A stretch of DNA of 21,497 bases, taken from IMG/VR virus record IMGVR_UViG_3300032323_001614, positions 1 through 21,497 of that record; one strand, written 5' to 3'. The stretch is from a virus. The position numbers and the translations under genes are program-made. Every line of letters starts with the position of its first letter. The first letter of the stretch is position 1. The notes under the pieces are model-generated. The model was not told the origin of the DNA. It saw only the letters and a list, made by a program, of their open reading frames with translations, and did not search any database. Of the stretch, positions 3 through 21,497 are shown in pieces.

Positions 3-1070
3 ATAGTGGCAGTAATCCTATCAATCTATCTCACAAGGTTCACTCATGGATACATCTTTGCGCTCGCTTTGGGAGCAATCGCCTATTATGGTGGCTTCCA
101 ACTGTTTATGGGATCAGGGTATTTACTTGATGCTGTATTCCCGATTCTTACCATATTCATTGCCAGCTTCCATGGATACATTGTCAAATTCCTTGTCGAG
201 TTGCGTGCAAAACAACAAATTAAAAAACAATTTGGCGGATATGTCTCTCCAATCATTGTTAATCAATTGGCAGAAGATCCTGAAGGTGCAGCAGAACGAT
301 TGAAGGGTGAGAAGAAAGATCTCTCTATCGTTATGACCGATCTTCGTGGATTTACTACACTTGGTGAATCTTTCGGTGCTGATGTGCAAGGTTTGACTGC
401 AGTTATGAATCGTTATATGGATGCATTGTCTAAGCCAGTGCTAAAGAATGGTGGTTGCATTATCAAGTTTATTGGTGATGCGTCACTTCATGTTCACAAT
501 GCACCTGTTGATGATAATGACCACGCAGTTACTGCAGTTAAGACTGCTCTTGAGATGATTCAAGCAATTGAAGAGTTCAATAAAGAACTTCAAGCAGAAG
601 GTCGTCCACCTGTAGGTATGGGTGCTGGTGTGAACACTGGTCCAACTCTGATTGGTAACATCGGTGCCAACGATCGTTATGGTTATGATGTGCTGGGTGA
701 TTCAGTATCAACTGCAGCACGTCTTGAAGGACAAACAAAAGGTTATGGAGTTCTGCTGGTTATTGGTCCAGATACAGCGGAACGAGTGAAACATGTTTAT
801 GATGTGGCACAACTTGATTGTATTGCAGTAAAAGGTAAAACAATTGGACTTCACATTTACGCAATCGCAAAAGTGGGTGAGAAACACCAACAGTATCTAG
901 ATGCATATTATGCAGGCGATTGGAAGAGAGCGATTAAACTATGTCAGGAACTAAAAAATGGGGATTTGAGCACGAATCCCTTAATAGAGTATTACAAGCT
1001 GATGCACGAAAGAATGGAACAAGGCAAACCAAACAATTGGGACGGAGTTTACCACGCAACCAGCAAGTAG
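3..1070 (+). CDS. Membrane-bound class III adenylate cyclase, 5' end outside window
   Basis: This should make cAMP from ATP at the inner membrane. The frame is open through the left edge, so the N-terminus, probably a CHASE2-type sensor, is missing. Counting from the GTG at base 6, hydrophobic segments lie near residues 1-10, 16-36 and 42-62, followed by a linker and a class III catalytic domain (about 100-290). Metal-binding Asp is D112 in TDLRGFTT and D158 in KFIGD, with K154 as the purine-contacting Lys. D228 in DVLGD fits ATP rather than GTP specificity, and R239 is the transition-state Arg. The usual Asn of the VNxxxR motif is Ser (S235). The tail (290-354) looks TPR-like and ends in WDGVYHATSK, as in CHASE2 cyclases. 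The family is common in bacteria but unusual in a phage. The last 130 bases overlap the next gene. The family call is firm; activity is uncertain because of N-to-S. Confidence 0.9.
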   Translation: MVAVILSIYLTRFTHGYIFALALGAIAYYGGFQLFMGSGYLLDAVFPILTIFIASFHGYIVKFLVELRAKQQIKKQFGGYVSPIIVNQLAEDPEGAAERLKGEKKDLSIVMTDLRGFTTLGESFGADVQGLTAVMNRYMDALSKPVLKNGGCIIKFIGDASLHVHNAPVDDNDHAVTAVKTALEMIQAIEEFNKELQAEGRPPVGMGAGVNTGPTLIGNIGANDRYGYDVLGDSVSTAARLEGQTKGYGVLLVIGPDTAERVKHVYDVAQLDCIAVKGKTIGLHIYAIAKVGEKHQQYLDAYYAGDWKRAIKLCQELKNGDLSTNPLIEYYKLMHERMEQGKPNNWDGVYHATSK

Positions 1071-2289: not shown

Positions 2290-2516
2290 TTGACCAATTA
2301 AGAGAAGTTGCAGGTATGGGTGGTCCTGCTGCAATGTTGGCAAATGAACTGTTAGTTCTTCGCGAACAATACGAAAGACAAGAACTTACATTTGAAGAAT
2401 ATCAATATCTTACCAATCAAATTGCTGAAGTGAGAGCTGCTCAAGAATTAAGTAGCGATGAGCAAGCATGTCGTTATATTATCGCTGCTGCTAAAGCTCT
2501 TTCAACATTTGTGTAA
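2286..2516 (+). CDS. Small helical protein, unknown
   Basis: The 76-aa acidic product is predicted to be mostly helical (EQYERQELTFEEYQYLTNQI in the middle), with a conserved-looking ASDEQACR-type segment near the C-terminus. The ATG at 2286 is preferred to the one at 2274: it has GGAGGGG just upstream and overlaps the lipoprotein stop as ATGA. The gene ends in a TAATG overlap with the phosphoesterase gene, so translation is probably coupled across the border between the membrane-protein block and the envelope-metabolism block. No family recognised. Confidence 0.75.
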   Translation: MIDQLREVAGMGGPAAMLANELLVLREQYERQELTFEEYQYLTNQIAEVRAAQELSSDEQACRYIIAAAKALSTFV

Positions 2517-3277
2517 TGAAATACCGCACGATATTCATAAGTGATGTTCACTTAGGTACTCGTGATTGTCAAGCAAACAAATTAAATAACTTTCTAAAAC
2601 ATAACTCCTGCGAGACTCTATATCTCGTGGGGGATATAATTGATGCTTGGAAAATTCAACAGAACAAATGGCGATGGAAACAAAGCCATACTAATGTTGT
2701 CCGCAGAATACTTGGTCATGCCAAGCGTGGAACAAAAGTGATTTATGTTGCAGGTAATCATGATGAATTCTTAAGACCGATGATCCCCTACGGATTCTCT
2801 TTCGGTCTAATTGAAATTACAAGCCAAACAGAACATGTCGGTGCAGATGGTAAACGATACCTAGTCACACATGGAGATCTATTCGATGGTATCACTAGAC
2901 TTGCTCCATGGCTTGCTTTTCTTGGCGATAAACTATACGATTTAGTTCTTGATTGGAACTCTCGTTTCAATTGGGTTCGTCGTAAACTGGGATTTGGTTA
3001 TTGGTCATTATCTAAGTATTTAAAACATAGAGTTAAGAAAGCGTCTGACTTTATGTTCCAGTTTGAAAAGAATCTTGCAGCATATTGTAAGAAGCGTGGC
3101 TTTGATGGTGTTATATGTGGACATATACACCATGCAGAAATCAAAGAGATTGATGGTGTTACATATATGAACGATGGTGATTGGGTTGAGTCTTGTACTG
3201 CCCTTGTTGAACATCATGATGGTCGTTGGGACATAGTAACTTGGACGCAGGAGAGCGATAATGTCGTTACAGAATAA
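2516..3277 (+). CDS. LpxH-like calcineurin-type metallophosphoesterase
   Basis: The 253-aa product carries the full set of metallophosphoesterase motifs: DVHLG (D10, H12), GDIID (D40), GNHDE (N81, H82), THGD (H119) and GHIHH (H203, H205). The tail motif NDGDWVESCTALVE (residues 219-232) is typical of COG2908, the UDP-2,3-diacylglucosamine pyrophosphatase (LpxH)-like group. LpxH proper removes UMP from the lipid A precursor; many relatives act on other nucleotide-sugar lipids or phosphodiesters, so the exact substrate is inferred. It overlaps the preceding stop by one base and the following glycosyltransferase gene by 17 bases. Genes of this kind next to glycosyltransferases and a desaturase suggest a role in remodelling host envelope glycolipids. 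Confidence 0.9.
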   Translation: MKYRTIFISDVHLGTRDCQANKLNNFLKHNSCETLYLVGDIIDAWKIQQNKWRWKQSHTNVVRRILGHAKRGTKVIYVAGNHDEFLRPMIPYGFSFGLIEITSQTEHVGADGKRYLVTHGDLFDGITRLAPWLAFLGDKLYDLVLDWNSRFNWVRRKLGFGYWSLSKYLKHRVKKASDFMFQFEKNLAAYCKKRGFDGVICGHIHHAEIKEIDGVTYMNDGDWVESCTALVEHHDGRWDIVTWTQESDNVVTE

Positions 3278-3974
3278 AATAACAATAGTTGTTCCTTGTA
3301 AAAACGAGGAAACATACATTGCGCATTTGTTAATGCATCTGCGCCAGCAAGAGATAGGTAATACCAGAATTATTATCGCTGACTGCTCGACTGACAATAC
3401 AAGAGAAGTCATTCAAACAATGAAAGGCAATCTGAATGTTGAAGTTATTGAAGGTGGACCAGTTTCTATTGCTAAAAATAATGGAGCAAAATTAGCAACA
3501 ACTCCATATATTTTATTCATTGATGCTGATGTTCGTTTCTTCAACAACAAAGTTATCCGCGATGCAGTTGATCAACTAGAAACTAATAACTTAGATCTTG
3601 TTGGATTGTATGCAAAGTGTTATGATGATGATTACCGTGCACAAATCGGCTTTATGATTTTTAACTGTATCAACAGAATTATGCAATATACAGTACCATT
3701 CGCTGTTGGTGCTTTTATGCTAACTCGCAGAGATAGGTTTGAAGAGTTCGGTGGTTTCGCTGCAAAGTATGGAACCAGCGAAGACTTCTTCTTATCTAAA
3801 CGATACGATGTTAAGAAATTTAAATTGGTGAACCACTATTTTGGACAGGACAGCAGAAGATTCCAGATAATGGGGTACTTCGGTATGGCATGGTATCTAA
3901 TAAAGAACTTGTGGAACAGAAACAATGATGCATATTGGAACACTGTAGACTACTCCAAATATTGGAATAAATAA
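3261..3974 (+). CDS. Family 2 (GT-A) glycosyltransferase
   Basis: The 237-aa product has the GT2 signature: VVPCKNEE at residues 10-17, nucleotide-binding Asp in ADCSTDNT (D41), the metal-binding DAD at 88-90, and the catalytic ED pair at 174-175 in TSEDFFLS, followed by DSRRF (197-201). A moderately hydrophobic stretch (131-153) and a C-terminal aromatic segment could bring it to the membrane. The sugar donor and acceptor cannot be read from the sequence. The start at 3261 has AGGAGAG upstream and lies inside the phosphoesterase gene. The pairing with an LpxH-like phosphatase points to a lipid-linked or surface glycan rather than DNA glucosylation, but the latter is not excluded. Confidence 0.88.
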   Translation: MSLQNKITIVVPCKNEETYIAHLLMHLRQQEIGNTRIIIADCSTDNTREVIQTMKGNLNVEVIEGGPVSIAKNNGAKLATTPYILFIDADVRFFNNKVIRDAVDQLETNNLDLVGLYAKCYDDDYRAQIGFMIFNCINRIMQYTVPFAVGAFMLTRRDRFEEFGGFAAKYGTSEDFFLSKRYDVKKFKLVNHYFGQDSRRFQIMGYFGMAWYLIKNLWNRNNDAYWNTVDYSKYWNK

Positions 3975-3978
3975 CTAC

Positions 3979-4680
3979 ATGACACCAATAATATACACCT
4001 TAATACTAACACATATTACTATTCTTTGTGTAACAATTTATTTACACAGAGGTGTAACTCATAGAGGGTTGGAGTTTCACCCAGCACTATCGCATTTCAT
4101 GCGTTTCTGGTTGTGGCTTACAACAGGTATGGTTACTAAACAATGGGTAGCCATTCATCGCAAGCATCATAGATTTATTGACACTGATGGTGATCCACAT
4201 AGTCCTAAGTTATTTGGAATTAAAAACATTGTTTTCCGTGGCGTATACTATTACTATCAAGCAGCAAAAGATGCTAGAATGGTTGTTGAGTATGGTGCTG
4301 GTACACCAAACGATTGGGTTGAACGAAAAGTTTACACCAAACATCACTTCTTAGGTGTATTATTAATGTTATCAATCAATGTTTTATTATTTGGTTGGAT
4401 AGGAATACTAATTTGGCTATTACAAATTGTCTGGATTCCATTTTGGGCAGCAGGTGTGATCAATGGGCTTGGACATTGGTGGGGCTACAGCAACACAGAT
4501 AATAAAGACAGTTCAAGAAACATACTTCCCTTCGGTATTTGGATTGGTGGCGAGGAACTACACAATAACCACCACGCTGAACCAGCAAATCCTAGACTAA
4601 GTAGAAAGTGGTGGGAAATAGATATCGGTTGGATTTGGATAAATATATTTAAGCATTTAAGATTGTTAAGGATCCGCTAA
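3979..4680 (+). CDS. Short acyl (delta-9 type) fatty acid desaturase
   Basis: The 233-aa membrane diiron enzyme has all histidine boxes of the SCD/DesC family: H23RGVTH28, H60RKHH64, H195NNHH199, plus NGLGH (162-166), which supplies an additional metal ligand. Hydrophobic segments lie at about 4-22, 37-52, 125-150 and 150-163. The family introduces a cis double bond in acyl chains of acyl-CoA, acyl-ACP or membrane lipids. Bacterial members are usually longer (about 300 aa or more); this one has short ends but no missing metal ligand. It begins 5 bases after the glycosyltransferase stop with only a weak ribosome site. In context it could raise membrane fluidity or edit a lipid made with its neighbours. 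Confidence 0.92.
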   Translation: MTPIIYTLILTHITILCVTIYLHRGVTHRGLEFHPALSHFMRFWLWLTTGMVTKQWVAIHRKHHRFIDTDGDPHSPKLFGIKNIVFRGVYYYYQAAKDARMVVEYGAGTPNDWVERKVYTKHHFLGVLLMLSINVLLFGWIGILIWLLQIVWIPFWAAGVINGLGHWWGYSNTDNKDSSRNILPFGIWIGGEELHNNHHAEPANPRLSRKWWEIDIGWIWINIFKHLRLLRIR

Positions 4681-4695
4681 CATTAGTATTTGATT

Positions 4696-5229
4696 ATGAA
4701 AATTATTATTACTGGCCATATGAATGGCATTGGAAAAGCAATCTATGATAAGTTTAGTAATTGTGGTTGGGAAGTTTCTGGCTACGATATACTAAACGAT
4801 CGCAATGTAACACTCCCCCAAACTCAGAAAAATTTGTTAGAAGAACTTCTAACGGCAGATGTATTTGTAAATAATGCATTACCATCTCAAACTGAAGTTC
4901 TAGTTTCTGCACACAAACAATGGATTGGTCAACAGAAAACCATTGTGAATATTTCCAGTGCCATAACATACATGTATGTAAACAACGATTATCCTGAATC
5001 GTTTACTGCTTACTACAATCACAAACAAACTTTAGATAATCAAACTAGAGTTTTACAAAAACAAAACAGATACCCAAATATAATAAACTTTAGACCAGCT
5101 TGGGTTGATACCCAACTAGCTGATGGTATCTATGATTTTAAAATCAAACCTGAACATCTGGCCAACCTAATTTATTTTTGTGTAGAAAACTCTGAGCATC
5201 AACAATTTTTAGATGTGGTGGTGAGATAG
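4696..5229 (+). CDS. Short-chain dehydrogenase/reductase-like protein
   Basis: The 177-aa Rossmann protein has the NAD(P)-binding TGHMNGIG (6-13), an NNA motif (59-61), the catalytic Ser region NISSA (85-89), YxxxK with Y106 and K110, and RPAWVDT after strand 6, where SDRs have PGxVxT. The protein is shorter than usual (about 245 aa): the helix region between NNA and the Ser strand and the C-terminal substrate lobe are trimmed, which suggests a small or unusual substrate. I chose the ATG at 4696; a TTG two codons earlier is possible. The gene overlaps the aminotransferase start by one base (TAGTG), so a two-step conversion, carbonyl reduction plus amino transfer, is a reasonable inference. 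Confidence 0.85.
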   Translation: MKIIITGHMNGIGKAIYDKFSNCGWEVSGYDILNDRNVTLPQTQKNLLEELLTADVFVNNALPSQTEVLVSAHKQWIGQQKTIVNISSAITYMYVNNDYPESFTAYYNHKQTLDNQTRVLQKQNRYPNIINFRPAWVDTQLADGIYDFKIKPEHLANLIYFCVENSEHQQFLDVVVR

Positions 5230-6383
5230 TGGAATTAAATCAATGGTCTTTTAATGAGACGAAGAAACAAGTAGTTAAAACTGAGGGATATTGGATTTAC
5301 TATTCTGATGGTAGTAGATGTATGGATATACAGTCAGGTAACACTGCTTTTGTTTTGGGATACTCTGATCAAGAAATTCTAAATTCAATTAGAGATAATG
5401 ATATTGGATTTCTTCGTGGTAACAGTGGAGAAAGTTCTGAAGACAATGATAAACTTGTTCAATATATTTGCCAAAGTGGTAACTGGGAATCGTTGGCTTG
5501 GGCAGTAAGTGGTAGCGATGCTGTTGAAGCAGCAATAGCCATGAATGATTGTTATTGGGAATACATCGGTAAACACAAACCAAAGATTATTTCTTTCTCT
5601 CCAGGATATCACGGAACTACCATGCTCGCTAAGCATTTTCGTGGGGAATATCTTTATCTTAATCGTGCTGAAATTATACCAGCACCAGATTGGAAATACT
5701 TGTTAGATAGAGAAGAACAAGAAACAATTGCACTAACATTAGTTGAGCAAAAGTTACAAACTGATACATCTATTGGTTGTATAATTATGGAAACACTTCC
5801 TTGGATGCCATCTATTAGTCCATACAGTCAGAACTGGTGGAAAGCAATTAGAATGCTATGCGATAAGTATAATGTTTTGATGATTGTTGATGATGTGGCA
5901 GTTTGCTGGGGAAAGAACGGAACTATGTTTGGGTGGCAGAAATACAATGTTCAACCTGACATATCCTCTTTGGGTAAATCTTTGACTGCTGGTTACTCGC
6001 CACTTGGTGCTGCAGTTTGCAATAAAAAAGTAGCTGAAGTTTTAAAGTGGAAATCATGGGAGCATGGGCATACTTGGTCGCCAAACATGCATGGTGTTAG
6101 TGCTTCTTTGATAGCAACAAAACGAATAGAATCTTTACTTGATCGTGTTCCGTTTATACATAATGAATTGGTCAGGATCGCAGAAGAATTGGAACTTGTA
6201 TGGAGAGGTGAGGGACTGTTTATTTGCTATGACTTCCCACGCTATATATCTCTTGCCGAGTTATCATCAGTTGGACTTGTAGCATCAATTCCATCAACAA
6301 CCTCTGTAAAAGTTATAGCACCGCTGATAGCTGACACAGAATATTTTACAAACTTAAAAACAAATTTACAAAGGATATTATGA
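5229..6383 (+). CDS. Class III PLP-dependent aminotransferase
   Basis: The 384-aa fold type I aminotransferase resembles glutamate-1-semialdehyde aminomutase and BioA/acetylornithine enzymes. Visible motifs are SGSDAVE (94-100, phosphate cup), YHGTT (127-131), VDDVAVCWGKNG (220-231, with D221 holding the pyridine nitrogen; most relatives have DE), PLP Lys K250 in LGKSLTAG, PLGA (258-261) and HTWS (281-284). It is compact compared with the usual 420-450 aa, mainly in the C-terminal domain. Start is GTG at 5229, sharing a base with the SDR stop. The substrate is not readable; an amino-sugar or amino-lipid product fits the operon but is only inferred. Confidence 0.9.
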   Translation: MELNQWSFNETKKQVVKTEGYWIYYSDGSRCMDIQSGNTAFVLGYSDQEILNSIRDNDIGFLRGNSGESSEDNDKLVQYICQSGNWESLAWAVSGSDAVEAAIAMNDCYWEYIGKHKPKIISFSPGYHGTTMLAKHFRGEYLYLNRAEIIPAPDWKYLLDREEQETIALTLVEQKLQTDTSIGCIIMETLPWMPSISPYSQNWWKAIRMLCDKYNVLMIVDDVAVCWGKNGTMFGWQKYNVQPDISSLGKSLTAGYSPLGAAVCNKKVAEVLKWKSWEHGHTWSPNMHGVSASLIATKRIESLLDRVPFIHNELVRIAEELELVWRGEGLFICYDFPRYISLAELSSVGLVASIPSTTSVKVIAPLIADTEYFTNLKTNLQRIL

Positions 6384-16769: not shown

Positions 16770-17357
16770 ATGATGAATACAAAATATAAAGTTTTTGATA
16801 ATTGTGTACCAAAACAATTATCAAATGATATAGAAATTACAATGACAGGTGAGTCTTTCCCCTGGTTTTATACCAACAAAAGTGTATATACACCAGATCA
16901 GGATGATAGATTTGATGATGGAATACATTATAAAGATAAATGTTCTTTGGGTCATGCGTTCACTTTGGGTGAGCCACCAAAAATAAATTCTATTTTTTAT
17001 GAGATGATTGTGGAGTTATTAGAAACAGTTTCTAACTCAATTAATATTAAATGTGAACTTTTAAGAGCTAGAGCGAATTATACATACCCTATCTCTGCTA
17101 ACCAAACTGATATTCCATTTAGTCCTCATATAGATGGTGATTATGAACATAAAGTTTTATTATATTATGTTAATGATTCTGATGGCGACACTCTGTTGTT
17201 TGATGATGATATCAATATTATTGATAGAATCTCTCCCAGAAAAGGTAGATTCATTATATTCAATGGTAATTTGGTTCATGCTGCTTGTGCGCCAAAAGTT
17301 CATGAAAAAAGAATTGTTATAAATTACAACCTAAAGTTAGATTATGATTACAATTAA
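16770..17357 (+). CDS. 2OG-Fe(II) oxygenase (prolyl-4-hydroxylase-like)
   Basis: The 195-aa product has the double-stranded beta-helix signature of 2-oxoglutarate/Fe(II) dioxygenases: H120-x-D122 in SPHIDGD, distal H170 in NLVHAAC, and a 2OG-binding Arg at R181 in KRIVINYN. VLLYYVNDSDGDTLLF (129-144) is the core strand pair. These enzymes hydroxylate proteins, nucleic acids or small molecules; the substrate is not readable. It is a paralogue of the oxygenase at 20337 (see 17157-17185). The last 14 bases overlap the next gene. Confidence 0.88.
   Translation: MMNTKYKVFDNCVPKQLSNDIEITMTGESFPWFYTNKSVYTPDQDDRFDDGIHYKDKCSLGHAFTLGEPPKINSIFYEMIVELLETVSNSINIKCELLRARANYTYPISANQTDIPFSPHIDGDYEHKVLLYYVNDSDGDTLLFDDDINIIDRISPRKGRFIIFNGNLVHAACAPKVHEKRIVINYNLKLDYDYN
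17157..17185 (+). repeat. 29-base identical segment shared with 20673-20701
   Basis: The coding stretch for LYYVNDSDG is identical at the DNA level over 29 bases in both prolyl-hydroxylase-like genes. Identity through third codon positions suggests recent duplication or gene conversion rather than old protein homology. Confidence 0.9.
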
Positions 17358-18848: not shown

Positions 18849-18923
18849 GCTCGGTTCGTCTATCGGTTAGGACACTGCCCTTTCACGGCAGTAAGACCAG
18901 TTCGATTCTGGTACCGAGTACCA
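18849..18923 (+). tRNA. tRNA-Glu (TTC)
   Basis: Acceptor GCTCGGT pairs with ACCGAGT perfectly; D-arm GTCTATCGGTTAGGAC; anticodon loop CTTTCAC closed by CTGCC/GGCAG; T-arm ACCAG-TTCGATT-CTGGT; discriminator A and encoded CCA. First tRNA of the array; it is flanked directly by candidate RNAs 1 and 2, whose terminal helices touch its 5' base and its CCA. Confidence 0.95.
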
Positions 18924-19068
18924 TTTGTTTAGTGTTATCAAGGTATCGTCATAGGACGCTATGACTATTCGGGTTCAATCGGCTGGAGACGAATCCTAAC
19001 ATAACTGCCTCAGCTTTGGATGGGAAGCACCCAACTCCTAAATTGGCACGATAGCACTAAACAAATGG
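18921..19068 (+). ncRNA. Candidate structured RNA 2, closed by a 19-bp terminal helix
   Basis: 18921-18939 pairs with 19050-19068 over 19 bp; the single non-Watson-Crick pair is U18935-G19054. The first three bases are the CCA of tRNA-Glu, so 16 bp remain if the tRNA is matured first. The interior has GTCATAG-GACG-CTATGAC (18948-18965), a possible ATTCG/CGAAT pairing (18967-18971/18990-18994) enclosing a GGGTTCAATC string like a tRNA T-loop, and a TGGG-AAGCA-CCCA hairpin (about 19020-19032). No ORF with a ribosome site lies inside. The GACG loop recurs in candidate RNA 1. Class unknown to me. Confidence 0.65.
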
Positions 19069-19090
19069 CACCCATGCAAGTGCGCAAGGT

Positions 19091-19123
19091 TTGGTAGTTT
19101 TCCTTTTATCCAAAAACTACCAA
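19091..19123 (+). other. 11-bp inter-tRNA hairpin
   Basis: TTGGTAGTTTT (19091-19101) pairs perfectly with AAAACTACCAA (19113-19123) around an 11-nt pyrimidine-rich loop, in the 67-base gap between candidate RNA 2 and tRNA-His. GTTTTT follows 5 bases later, so it could be a weak terminator, or a processing stem for the tRNA-His precursor. Confidence 0.6.
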
Positions 19124-19135
19124 GATGTTTTTGGT

Positions 19136-19209
19136 GTGACTATGTTGTAATGGTAGCAACGCAGATTGTGATTCTGCTAGTCTGGGTTCAACTCCCAGTA
19201 GTCACCCCA
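19136..19209 (+). tRNA. tRNA-His (GTG)
   Basis: Acceptor GTGACTA pairs with TAGTCAC; anticodon loop TTGTGAT closed by GCAGA/TCTGC; T-arm CTGGG-TTCAACT-CCCAG; discriminator C and CCA encoded. The base before position 1 is T in DNA, so the G-1 typical of tRNA-His is not encoded opposite C73. First of four consecutive GUN-anticodon tRNAs. Confidence 0.93.
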
Positions 19210-19218
19210 AAAATATTT

Positions 19219-19303
19219 GGAGAAGAAGCATCAATGGTGATGCAGTGGACTGTAAATCCGCCACCTTCGGGTACGACTGGTTCGATCCCAGTATTCTCCA
19301 CCA
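19219..19303 (+). tRNA. tRNA-Tyr (GTA)
   Basis: Type II tRNA with long variable arm. Acceptor GGAGAAG against ATTCTCC (G-A mismatch at pair 7); anticodon loop CTGTAAA closed by GTGGA/TCCGC; T-arm ACTGG-TTCGATC-CCAGT; discriminator A, CCA encoded. Confidence 0.93.
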
Positions 19304-19310
19304 AGTTTTA

Positions 19311-19385
19311 GGCTCGTTAGTATAATGGTCATTACAGCGGATTGTCTATCCGCTTATGGGAGTTCGATTCTCCCACGAGTCGCCA
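19311..19385 (+). tRNA. tRNA-Asp (GTC)
   Basis: Acceptor GGCTCGT against ACGAGTC (one G-U); anticodon loop TTGTCTA closed by GCGGA/TCCGC; T-arm GGGAG-TTCGATT-CTCCC; discriminator G, CCA encoded. Confidence 0.95.
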
Positions 19386-19391
19386 AGTTAT

Positions 19392-19466
19392 TCCAAAGTA
19401 GCACAGCGGTAGTGCAGCAGACTGTTAATCTGTTGGTCGATGGTTCGATCCCATCCTTTGGAGCCA
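19392..19466 (+). tRNA. tRNA-Asn (GTT)
   Basis: Acceptor TCCAAAG against CTTTGGA; D-arm GCACAGCGGTAGTGC; anticodon loop CTGTTAA closed by GCAGA/TCTGT; T-arm GATGG-TTCGATC-CCATC; discriminator G, CCA encoded. Fourth of the GUN-anticodon quartet. Confidence 0.95.
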
Positions 19467-19474
19467 GTGTTATT

Positions 19475-19548
19475 GCTCTGTTAGTATATTGGTATTATTC
19501 CTGTTTTGTACTCAGGAGAAGGTAGTTCGATTCTATCATGGAGCACCA
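19475..19548 (+). tRNA. tRNA-Thr (TGT)
   Basis: Acceptor GCTCTGT against ATGGAGC (two wobbles); anticodon loop TTTGTAC closed by CCTGT/TCAGG (one T-T mismatch); T-arm GGTAG-TTCGATT-CTATC; discriminator A, CCA encoded. Weaker stems than its neighbours but complete. Confidence 0.88.
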
Positions 19549-19558
19549 TAAGTATTAT

Positions 19559-19632
19559 TACTCAGTGATGTAATGGCAGCATAATGGTCTCCAAAACCAT
19601 TCGTTGGGGTTCAAGTCCCTACTGGGTAGCCA
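19559..19632 (+). tRNA. tRNA-Trp (CCA)
   Basis: Acceptor TACTCAG against CTGGGTA (one wobble); anticodon loop CTCCAAA closed by ATGGT/ACCAT; T-arm TGGGG-TTCAAGT-CCCTA; discriminator G, CCA encoded. Confidence 0.93.
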
Positions 19633-19639
19633 AGTTTTA

Positions 19640-19727
19640 GGAAGAGTGGGTGAGTGGTTTAAACCAGCAGTCTTGAAAACTGCCGATGTGAAAGCATCCC
19701 TGAGTTCGAATCTCAGTTCTTCCGCCA
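19640..19727 (+). tRNA. tRNA-Ser (TGA)
   Basis: Type II tRNA. Acceptor GGAAGAG against TTCTTCC; anticodon loop CTTGAAA closed by GCAGT/ACTGC; long variable arm GATGTGAAAGCATC; T-arm CTGAG-TTCGAAT-CTCAG; discriminator G, CCA encoded. Followed after 17 bases by an oxygenase gene. Confidence 0.95.
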
Positions 19728-19744
19728 AATTACAGGAGTGTTTT

Positions 19745-20323
19745 ATGAATGAATTACAAGAAATAAGACCTTTTTATACGGCAATATATTCTACTACATT
19801 AGAAGTAGATAATTCTTTATTACAAAATGTTATTTTGAAAAATAAAACCGAAGATAGTGGTGTTGTGGTTAGCAATGTTGGTGGATGGCAGAGTAAAGTT
19901 TATGACGATGCACATACACCTTGTATGGTAGATTTACTTGATAAAATAATGTTATATGTAAATGCAATATATGATGTTATGAAAGTTAATGTGAAGTCAC
20001 CGACCTTAAAAGGTTATTGGTTCAATGTTAACGGTAAATATAACTATAATATAACACACTCTCATAGCCCTTGTTTCTATTCAGCTATTTACTATGTTAA
20101 ATGTCCTAAAAATAGTGGAAGTCTACACTTTGTTAGATCAGATTTATTAACAGAGGTTGTTGAATTTTGCGAGGCTAATGAAAAAAATTACGGTGAATAT
20201 TATTTACAGCCCAGTGTCGGATCTTTGTATATTTTTCCATCGTTCTTAAAACATTATGTGACACAAAATTTGTCTGAAGAAGAAGATTCTGAGAGAATCT
20301 CTATAGCCTTTAATTTTAAATAA
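19745..20323 (+). CDS. Putative 2OG-Fe(II) oxygenase (TIGR02466-like) in the tRNA array
   Basis: The 192-aa product follows the TIGR02466/PF13759 pattern: GGWQSKVYDD near residue 47, LKGYWFNVNGKYNYNITHSH followed by SPCFYSAIYYV in the core, and PSVGSLYIFPSFLKHYVTQN followed by a DSERISIAFNFK end. THSH supplies metal-ligand candidates, H in FLKHYV is the distal His and R in SERISI the 2OG-binding Arg. Substrate is unknown; members are common in marine and freshwater phages. I start it at ATG 19745 with AGGAG 6-10 bases upstream; the same frame runs back through two tRNAs, which is not coding. No promoter lies between tRNA-Ser and this gene, so it is probably cotranscribed with the tRNAs. Confidence 0.82.
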   Translation: MNELQEIRPFYTAIYSTTLEVDNSLLQNVILKNKTEDSGVVVSNVGGWQSKVYDDAHTPCMVDLLDKIMLYVNAIYDVMKVNVKSPTLKGYWFNVNGKYNYNITHSHSPCFYSAIYYVKCPKNSGSLHFVRSDLLTEVVEFCEANEKNYGEYYLQPSVGSLYIFPSFLKHYVTQNLSEEEDSERISIAFNFK

Positions 20324-20336
20324 TAAAGAACATTAC

Positions 20337-20864
20337 ATGATACAGATTATTGATAATTTCTTACCAGAAGAATATGCAGACTTAATCGAGAATGTTTTAC
20401 TTGGTAGATATTTTGAATGGTATTTTTTAGATGATGTTACTCATATGACTTTGTCTGATAATGTCGAGAAAACTTTAGGATTCTCTCATTACTATTTTGA
20501 TGATGGACAGGCTATGAGTAATCATTTTTCTTTGGTCTATAAAATACCAGAAACTTACTACAAAGAAACACCATTTAATACGATTCAAGTAAGAAGTTTT
20601 TTACAAATTGCACAACCTCATAGAAGAGAGCATGACCATAAACACACTGATCGTGGGTTAAAACATACAGTGTTATTATATTATGTTAATGATTCTGATG
20701 GTGATACATTTTTGTTCGGTAAAGACATTAACGATCCAGTTTCAAAAAGAGTGACTCCAAAGAAAAATAGATTAGTTGTTTTTGATGGTGATATTTTTCA
20801 TGCTAGCAGCCAACCAACTGTTGGTAAAAGATGTATTATCAATTTTAATATCTCGATAGTATAA
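20337..20864 (+). CDS. 2OG-Fe(II) oxygenase (prolyl-4-hydroxylase-like), 3' end overlaps tRNA-Arg
   Basis: The 175-aa product has the Fe/2OG signature: HTD (H103-x-D105) in EHDHKHTDRG, core strands HTVLLYYVNDSDGDTFLF, distal His in GDIFHASS and 2OG-binding Arg in GKRCIINFN. It is a paralogue of the oxygenase at 16770, with a 29-base stretch of identical DNA. It starts 13 bases after the other oxygenase gene and lacks a strong ribosome site. Its last five codons, including the stop, are the first 15 bases of tRNA-Arg. RNase P maturation of that tRNA would therefore cut the mRNA inside the reading frame. Confidence 0.88.
   Translation: MIQIIDNFLPEEYADLIENVLLGRYFEWYFLDDVTHMTLSDNVEKTLGFSHYYFDDGQAMSNHFSLVYKIPETYYKETPFNTIQVRSFLQIAQPHRREHDHKHTDRGLKHTVLLYYVNDSDGDTFLFGKDINDPVSKRVTPKKNRLVVFDGDIFHASSQPTVGKRCIINFNISIV
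20673..20701 (+). repeat. 29-base identical segment shared with 17157-17185
   Basis: Second copy of the segment coding LYYVNDSDG, identical to the one in the oxygenase gene of the P4 operon 3.5 kb upstream. Confidence 0.9.
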
Positions 20865-20924
20865 TGGATAATACAGCTGCCTTCTAAGCAGTCAATATAG
20901 GTTCGATTCCTGTTCGGGGTACCA
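20850..20924 (+). tRNA. tRNA-Arg (TCT)
   Basis: Acceptor ATCTCGA against TCGGGGT (two wobbles); D-arm GTATAATGGATAATAC; anticodon loop CTTCTAA closed by GCTGC/GCAGT; T-arm ATAGG-TTCGATT-CCTGT; discriminator A, CCA encoded. Its first 15 bases are the end of the oxygenase reading frame. Confidence 0.92.
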
Positions 20925-20927
20925 GTT

Positions 20928-21012
20928 GCGAGTGTGGTGAAATCGGTAGACACAAGAGACTTAAAATCTCTCGCTTCACAGCATGCCAGTTCGATTCTGG
21001 CCACTCGCACCA
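20928..21012 (+). tRNA. tRNA-Leu (TAA)
   Basis: Type II tRNA. Acceptor GCGAGTG against CACTCGC; anticodon loop CTTAAAA closed by AGAGA/TCTCT; long variable arm; T-arm GCCAG-TTCGATT-CTGGC; discriminator A, CCA encoded. Confidence 0.95.
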
Positions 21013-21017
21013 AATAC

Positions 21018-21092
21018 AGGCTGGTAGCTTAATGGTAAAGCAGAGGACTCATAATCCTTTGAGTATAGGTTCAATCCCTATCCAGCCTACCA
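21018..21092 (+). tRNA. tRNA with CAT anticodon (elongator Met, or Ile2)
   Basis: Acceptor AGGCTGG against CCAGCCT; D-arm GCTTAATGGTAAAGC; anticodon loop CTCATAA closed by GAGGA/TCCTT; T-arm ATAGG-TTCAATC-CCTAT; discriminator A, CCA encoded. A fully paired first base pair and no run of three G-C pairs in the anticodon stem argue against initiator Met. Whether C34 stays C (Met) or becomes lysidine (Ile, AUA) cannot be told by eye. Confidence 0.9.
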
Positions 21093-21094
21093 TT

Positions 21095-21169
21095 GTGAGC
21101 GTGGCAGAAAGGTCATGCGTCGGATTGCAAATCCGTTCAATGTAGGTTCGAATCCTATCGCTCACTCCA
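21095..21169 (+). tRNA. tRNA-Cys (GCA)
   Basis: Acceptor GTGAGCG against CGCTCAC; anticodon loop TTGCAAA closed by TCGGA/TCCGT; T-arm GTAGG-TTCGAAT-CCTAT; discriminator T, CCA encoded (tRNA-Cys typically has U73). Confidence 0.95.
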
Positions 21170-21178
21170 TTGCAATAG

Positions 21179-21193
21179 ACTTGCTTTGCAAGT
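21179..21193 (+). promoter_or_regulatory. Dyad over the -35 region of P6
   Basis: ACTTGC (21179-21184) and GCAAGT (21188-21193) form a perfect 6-bp dyad around TTT, covering the whole -35 box of P6. It could be an operator or a weak terminator stem for the tRNAs upstream; TATTTTAT follows. Confidence 0.45.
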
Positions 21194-21209
21194 TATTTTA
21201 TAGTATACT
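21181..21209 (+). promoter_or_regulatory. Sigma-70-type promoter P6
   Basis: TTGCTT (21181-21186), 17-bp spacer, TATACT (21204-21209). It is the weakest of the six and lacks the ATTC spacer block. It would start transcription at about 21216, at the 5' base of the terminal helix of candidate RNA 3. Confidence 0.65.
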
Positions 21210-21212
21210 TAA

Positions 21213-21423
21213 TGTATTGATTGTTGAGAGTTTGTGAGAAAGAATAAGCAATCCAAACTGTTATGGAATATAACCATCCTTATCAAGTCAGCCCTATGTG
21301 GAAATAGTAGCTTGCCGACGCTACATAAACGATGAGATTAGGAGAGATCAAAGCGATGACTGGGTTCATCCAGAGCAAGCGAGAATCTCTTAAACATAGA
21401 ACAGTACTTTCAACAATCAATAT
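21213..21423 (+). ncRNA. Candidate structured RNA 3, closed by a 17-19 bp terminal helix
   Basis: 21215-21231 pairs with 21406-21422 over 17 bp, the only wobble being G21228-U21409; two outer wobbles (21214-21423, 21213-21424) could extend it to the first base of tRNA-Gly. Interior helices: GTTAT-GGAAT-ATAAC (21260-21274), GTAGC...GCTAC (around 21307-21324), GAGATT/AATCTC (21334-21339/21384-21389) enclosing CTGG-GTTCAT-CCAG (around 21360-21373). The expected start of P6 transcripts coincides with the 5' arm and RNase P would cut at the 3' arm, so both ends of a discrete RNA are predicted by independent signals. No ORF with a ribosome site. Class unknown to me. Confidence 0.65.
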
Positions 21424-21497
21424 GCGGGATTAGTTTAATGGTAAAACAGCAGATTTCCAATCTTCGGTCGTCAGTTCGATTCTGACATTCCGCTCCA
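21424..21497 (+). tRNA. tRNA-Gly (TCC)
   Basis: Acceptor GCGGGAT against ATTCCGC (one wobble); D-arm GTTTAATGGTAAAAC; anticodon loop TTTCCAA closed by GCAGA/TCTTC (one mismatch); T-arm GTCAG-TTCGATT-CTGAC; discriminator T, CCA encoded. Complete; it ends exactly at the window edge, so the array may continue. Confidence 0.93.

Follow-up and report, generated by a model that had tools for sequence, protein, structure and literature searches.

The window, a 21,497-base virus record of IMG/VR, begins inside a coding sequence. An open reading frame of 355 codons runs on the plus strand from position 3 to 1070; it is open at the first bases of the contig and its true start is lost. This frame covers the 3' half of a gene for a class III nucleotide cyclase. 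PF00211 (Guanylate_cyc) matched residues 104–280 with 66.4 bits (cut-off 21.9), and apart from it no family was matched by the frame in the Pfam search. When the IMG/VR viral contigs were scanned, at least 587 stretches related to the window cyclase were found, of which the best 80 were kept in the first scan. Because of these relatives and of the purifying selection described below, the frame is far beyond chance. L002, the closest relative among the matches listed, is 94% identical to the window cyclase, and about 320 more residues are expected from it for the 5' part lost at the contig end. The features of the fragment are listed below. The original prediction counted residues from a GTG at base 6, and its numbers are given in brackets.

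3..1070, plus strand: C-terminal 355 residues of a CHASE2-type class III nucleotide cyclase (open frame, PF00211, full-length relatives)
51..233, plus strand: predicted final two transmembrane helices with the beginning of the coiled linker, residues 17–38 and 45–77 (transferred from the L002 AlphaFold model)
198..239, plus strand: linker ELRAKQQIKKQFGG, residues 66–79, exchange point between sensor and catalytic parts (identity drop in Ser/Asn pairs)
312..842, plus strand: class III catalytic domain (PF00211 match, residues 104–280; Foldseek matches of the L002 model)
339..341, plus strand: metal Asp113 (D112), invariant in 198/198
465..467, plus strand: ATP-specifying Lys155 (K154), invariant in 198/198
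477..479, plus strand: metal Asp159 (D158), invariant in 198/198
489..497, plus strand: H163-V-H165, diagnostic of the Ser type, where Asn-type proteins have A-x-W; in 94/94 Ser-type versus 0/104 Asn-type proteins
687..689, plus strand: Asp229, second substrate-specifying site, Asp in 94/94 of the Ser type (Asn type: Thr 88, Ser 16)
708..710, plus strand: Ser236 (S235) replacing the transition-state Asn; 94 Ser and 104 Asn, n = 198
720..722, plus strand: transition-state Arg240 (R239), invariant in 198/198
873..1067, plus strand: C-terminal tail ending in WDGVYHATSK, the end being kept in 10/10 aligned Ser-class proteins

Full-length relatives and the curli/FecR module

The full-length relatives have about 670–690 amino acids and consist of an N-terminal CHASE2 domain and a cyclase domain. 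CHASE2 (PF05226) was found N-terminal of the transmembrane helices in all six full-length phage relatives scanned, at 123–140 bits. The truncated window has no CHASE2 and holds only transmembrane segments, and its sensor would be of the same type, judging from these relatives. The AlphaFold model of L002 (mean pLDDT 81.5, pTM 0.58) has three long helices behind the sensor domain. It is a model of the monomer, with weak stretches in the active-site loops 476–480 and 539–551. Its helices 337–358 and 365–397, minus 320, gave the helix positions in the window. Its catalytic part matched the class III cyclases CyaB, CyaC, Cya2 and OaPAC in Foldseek.

The observation in the original prediction was confirmed, namely a phage-encoded, membrane-bound, CHASE2-type cyclase with the metal Asp, Lys, Asp and Arg residues and an Asn-to-Ser change; its interpretation was partly supported. 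Identification of the sensor domain succeeded in every full-length relative scanned, not in the window itself. The statement that cyclases are rare in phages held for isolates, since only 9 of 50,697 named phage records contain a relative. It did not hold for uncultured aquatic phages, in which the gene is common, as the related stretches in IMG/VR indicate.

Two further scans brought the collection to 236 loci with 198 distinct phage proteins; the loci were collected by similarity, and all counts therefore describe the sampled relatives rather than all phages. Of the 102 distinct phage loci that extend 7 kb or more upstream, 96 have csgF, csgG and fecR near the cyclase (Ser class 48 of 53, Asn class 48 of 49). 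The count set no condition on position; the median distance of FecR was 1.3 kb, with a few hits elsewhere in the locus. In L002, L004 and L006, csgF-like, csgG-like, curlin-repeat-like and FecR-like genes precede the cyclase, and those of L002 were confirmed by Pfam. The cultured phages Melnitz, which grows on OM43, and HTVC008M, which grows on Pelagibacter, have the order csgF, csgG, curlin, fecR, a second repeat or hypothetical protein, and cyclase. The upstream DNA of the window itself lies beyond the contig, and the window would begin within the gene that closes a phage curli (type VIII secretion) module, as its relatives suggest. The original prediction had treated the cyclase as a lone cargo gene, which is not what the relatives show: it is the last gene of a phage curli/FecR module. 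The same prediction had named upstream host chromosomal genes as evidence of a contig join; in the relatives, phage curli genes lie upstream and not host chromosome.

The association of the cyclase with curli genes is already known. An adenylate cyclase was named as part of the pelagiphage type VIII secretion module together with FecR in 2022 (PMC9599517), and the module is matched by the closest relatives, in which csgF, csgG, a curlin repeat, fecR, another curlin repeat and the cyclase follow one another. The phage curli pore is also discussed in PMC9004378 and PMC7029224, the main texts of which contain no mention of the cyclase. The Ser and the two catalytic classes are not described in the available part of PMC9599517, nor is any exchange between the classes or a link to secretion operons with cNMP-binding domains. 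Within the literature consulted, some of it available in part, the new points here are an old Ser lineage, repeated exchange on phage sensors, and bacterial neighbours with secretion-linked cNMP-binding domains. Phage curli modules are widespread in the ocean.

Two catalytic classes and their exchange

D113, D159, K155 and R240 were invariant in all 198 phage cyclases. The conservation of the Ser in phage homologues, a question raised by the original prediction, could be answered from the same set: site 236 is Ser in 94 proteins and Asn in 104. The motif around it reads GDSVSTAAR in the window versus GDxVNxxxR in bacterial relatives. At site 229, every one of the 94 Ser proteins carries Asp, whereas the 104 Asn proteins have Thr in 88 cases and Ser in 16. 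Sites 120, 121, 154, 163 and 165 also split along the two classes, site 120 with one exception. The most striking split is H-x-H in the Ser class versus A-x-W in the Asn class, on the strand behind the second metal Asp. Because all these sites split together with site 236, the Ser is one element of an active-site form whose residues are inherited together. The dN/dS values between the window and its relatives were 0.08–0.17 for the whole fragment and 0.03–0.11 for the catalytic domain (Nei-Gojobori). On this sequence evidence, Ser236 is no lesion and marks one of two old classes of catalytic domain kept by selection.

The residues by which class III cyclases are recognized, two metal Asp, Lys, Asp/Thr and Arg, are all present, and only site 229 varies, by class. 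The transition-state Asn, usual and not obligatory in this class, is replaced by Ser236. The missing Asn was not taken as excluding class III membership, because an adenylyl cyclase of M. avium, Ma1120, has Ala at this position and is nevertheless active, as described in the available part of PMC4215837. According to the same source, the activity of Ma1120 is drastically lost once Asn is put at the Ala site, and Lys and Asp are its ATP-specifying pair. Ma1120 and the phage cyclase both belong to class III and share Lys and Asp at the substrate sites, a kept Arg and a replaced Asn. They differ in that the replacement in Ma1120 is Ala, not Ser, and that no CHASE2 or curli context is described for it in the part of PMC4215837 available. 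The Lys and Asp/Thr at the purine-specifying sites would place the phage enzymes with adenylate rather than guanylate cyclases.

For the history of the two classes, 84 representatives were used to build one tree from the sensor and transmembrane columns and another from the catalytic columns minus seven trait columns. Both trees were built by quick search with SH-aLRT support only, and the pairwise evidence given below is independent of them. On the catalytic tree, a single branch (SH-aLRT 99) separates the Ser class from the rest, so that one change suffices. Ser and Asn are mixed on the sensor tree, where 15 changes are needed; for the phage Ser group, starred branches make at least 11 of them unavoidable. 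A sensor tree constrained to keep the phage Ser rows in a single clade was rejected (p = 1.4e-9). Consistently, pairs of opposite class with sensors 80–90% identical have catalytic domains only 54% identical, versus 89% for the catalytic domains of same-class pairs.

L006 (Ser) and L144 (Asn) form the clearest pair, with 92% identity between sensors and 54% between catalytic domains. Their flanking DNA is alike, with 90% identity over about 8.1 kb upstream and 91% over 2.2 kb downstream. Identity falls from near codon 395, in the linker around QIKKQFG, until just past the stop codon. These two near-isogenic loci also differ in a region just upstream of the cyclase gene. Because the Ser class has a single origin on the catalytic tree and is scattered on the sensor tree, these results indicate that phages exchange the catalytic domain as a whole, the linker being the fixed point of exchange. 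Strong constraint and a repeatedly replaced catalytic half on a stable sensor suggest that the output of the enzyme matters to the phage. The Ser/Asp/HxH and Asn/Thr/AxW forms on near-identical sensors are also a natural set of active-site variants, the effect of which is directly testable.

Bacterial relatives of the cyclase

When 84,980 species genomes were scanned with the Ser-class alignment, using two exact peptide patterns that could miss divergent Ser-class genes, five bacterial loci (L237–L241) were found. L239–L241 look like phage DNA binned into genomes: csgF, csgG, curlin and fecR precede the cyclase in L239 and L240, and L241 begins with fecR, followed by the cyclase. L237 and L238 are SAR116 single-cell genomes with a cyclase of the Ser, Asp and H-I-H form. 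On the trees, the catalytic domain of SAR116 is nested among the phage Ser proteins, while the SAR116 sensor is remote from all phage sensors. A catalytic domain passed between phage and bacterium would fit this placement. With a wider profile search, cyclase relatives were detected in 166 of 385 genomes of the class to which SAR116 belongs. Outside SAR116, the 29 bacterial relatives ranked best carry Asn and MAFWNAP without exception (29/29), and the Ser class was found only in SAR116.

Alphaproteobacterial CHASE2 adenylate cyclases have the same CHASE2 and Guanylate_cyc architecture as the phage proteins, and some adjoin FecR. In contrast to the phage genes, which adjoin curli genes, they may adjoin genes for a C39-peptidase ABC exporter, for a cNMP-binding domain fused to HlyD and for other cNMP-binding proteins. 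In SAR116 (L237 and L238), the cyclase has as neighbours FecR, a C39-peptidase ABC exporter and a protein in which HlyD is fused to a cNMP-binding domain. Locus L276 (6600–13783) encodes C39-ABC, cNMP-binding-HlyD, the cyclase and then two cNMP-binding genes; L279 and L280 resemble it, and L282 and L289 have FecR adjacent. Among the 20 bacterial loci fetched, cNMP-binding genes were thus present in three and FecR was directly adjacent in two, and the two SAR116 genomes besides have both. With five of 20 loci, the association is recurrent but not general. No publication on bacterial operons of C39-ABC, cNMP-binding-HlyD and CHASE2 cyclase was found in a literature search. The gene arrangement of these operons suggests a secretion-coupled cAMP signal. 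Since they fuse a cNMP-binding domain to a secretion protein, control of export would be the best guess for the ancestral role, and they suggest where such a signal can go in general.

Proposed role, rival explanations and other genes of the window

The cyclase is proposed to sit in the inner membrane, where three transmembrane helices and a coiled linker would connect a CHASE2 sensor in the periplasm to a class III cyclase domain in the cytoplasm, and this domain would work as a homodimer. It most likely makes cAMP from ATP, as the Lys and Asp residues suggest. The sensor may respond to the state of curli export or of the envelope, perhaps jointly with the periplasmic FecR-domain protein encoded in the operon. 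Between phages, the class with Ser236, Asp229 and HxH and that with Asn236, Thr/Ser229 and AxW are exchanged at the linker, with sensor and flanks kept. A cNMP-binding domain (PF00027) was found in none of 22 cyclase-bearing phage records, most of which are not known to be complete, and the same search was positive in 11 of 14 control genomes. No phage-encoded cAMP receptor was found in these records; because the phages carry no such domain, the cAMP would be read by a host protein. The phage may in this way alter host cAMP signalling, as the original prediction suggested. Taken as a whole, this explanation of a curli-module CHASE2 cyclase that likely makes cAMP, with exchanged classes and a host readout, is considered probable.

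The original prediction had suggested that the Ser may lower activity or change the product. Both remain guesses without support, because dN/dS is low, the Ser belongs to a co-inherited form with invariant Lys and Asp, and Ma1120 is active with Ala (available part of PMC4215837). The title of Yan et al. 1997, cited in the available part of PMC4215837, calls Asn and Arg at these sites essential in mammalian adenylyl cyclase, and would agree with a phage protein that is degenerate or that regulates by binding nucleotide without turnover. Such a protein is unlikely, since the metal Asp, Lys, Asp and Arg are invariant in 94/94 Ser-class proteins down to about 50% identity, the catalytic domain is constrained at the dN/dS given above, and Ma1120 loses rather than gains activity with Asn. 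About equally unlikely is that the Ser class makes cGMP, cCMP or cUMP and that exchange changes the message to the host. The two classes do differ at a substrate-specifying site and in the HxH strand and were repeatedly exchanged on the same sensors, and there is a weak similarity to Pycsar cyclase models (PADLOC, best E 2e-17). Against this, Lys and Asp specify ATP in Ma1120 (PMC4215837, available part), the Lys site is invariant in both classes, the 22 phage records contain no cNMP-binding effector domain, and PADLOC matches of this kind would be expected of any class III domain. A related and similarly speculative view is that the cassettes are exchanged because their message differs in nucleotide, strength or regulation, and that hosts read, degrade or counter only one of the two, in an arms race over a curli-tied cyclic-nucleotide signal.

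Pycsar defence itself was rejected on context. The phage cyclase shares with PycC a class III cyclase domain, matched weakly by the PADLOC models. It differs in having a CHASE2 membrane sensor and a curli operon, and the cyclic-nucleotide-binding effector with which a Pycsar cyclase is paired is absent, no PF00027 being found in the 22 phage records. A cyclase that rides along as a passenger of the curli module, signals nothing during infection and is retained only because the module travels as one block is very unlikely. The available part of PMC9599517 reports that the module moves between phage families and that the cyclase is less often present in podoviruses, but strong purifying selection and repeated renewal of the catalytic domain are unexpected of a passenger. 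That the gene sits at a contig end would suit a host chromosome fragment or a contig join; this was rejected from the relatives, which lie inside long viral contigs and cultured phage genomes, and has a negligible probability. The window also shares phage DNA with other loci (1–1764 with L004 at 85%, 2515–3975 with L011 at 90%).

Several other features of the window were recorded. An open reading frame at 941–1192 starts inside the cyclase gene, overlaps it and ends in a hydrophobic stretch (TFCFVWGFLD). Similar peptides are present in L004 and L006 and absent behind the Asn-class gene of L144; a small membrane protein as a general companion of the Ser class was rejected. A calcineurin-like phosphoesterase at 2516–3277 was rejected as a cAMP phosphodiesterase, its nearest models being LpxH-type UDP-2,3-diacylglucosamine diphosphatases, with matches below their cut-offs. 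The region 2516–6383 encodes this LpxH-like phosphoesterase, a family 2 glycosyltransferase, a DesA-like desaturase, an SDR and a class III aminotransferase, a cluster suggestive of envelope lipid or sugar change. Three proteins, at 16770–17357, 19604–20323 and 20337–20864, are related to 2OG-Fe(II) oxygenases, and for two of them the best match is a PHROG labelled DNA endonuclease V. Twelve tRNA genes were found by ARAGORN at 18849–21497, and a weak thirteenth at 19219–19300 by Rfam (35 bits). The DNA ligase of the window is T4-like, with at most 41% identity to the best named phages.
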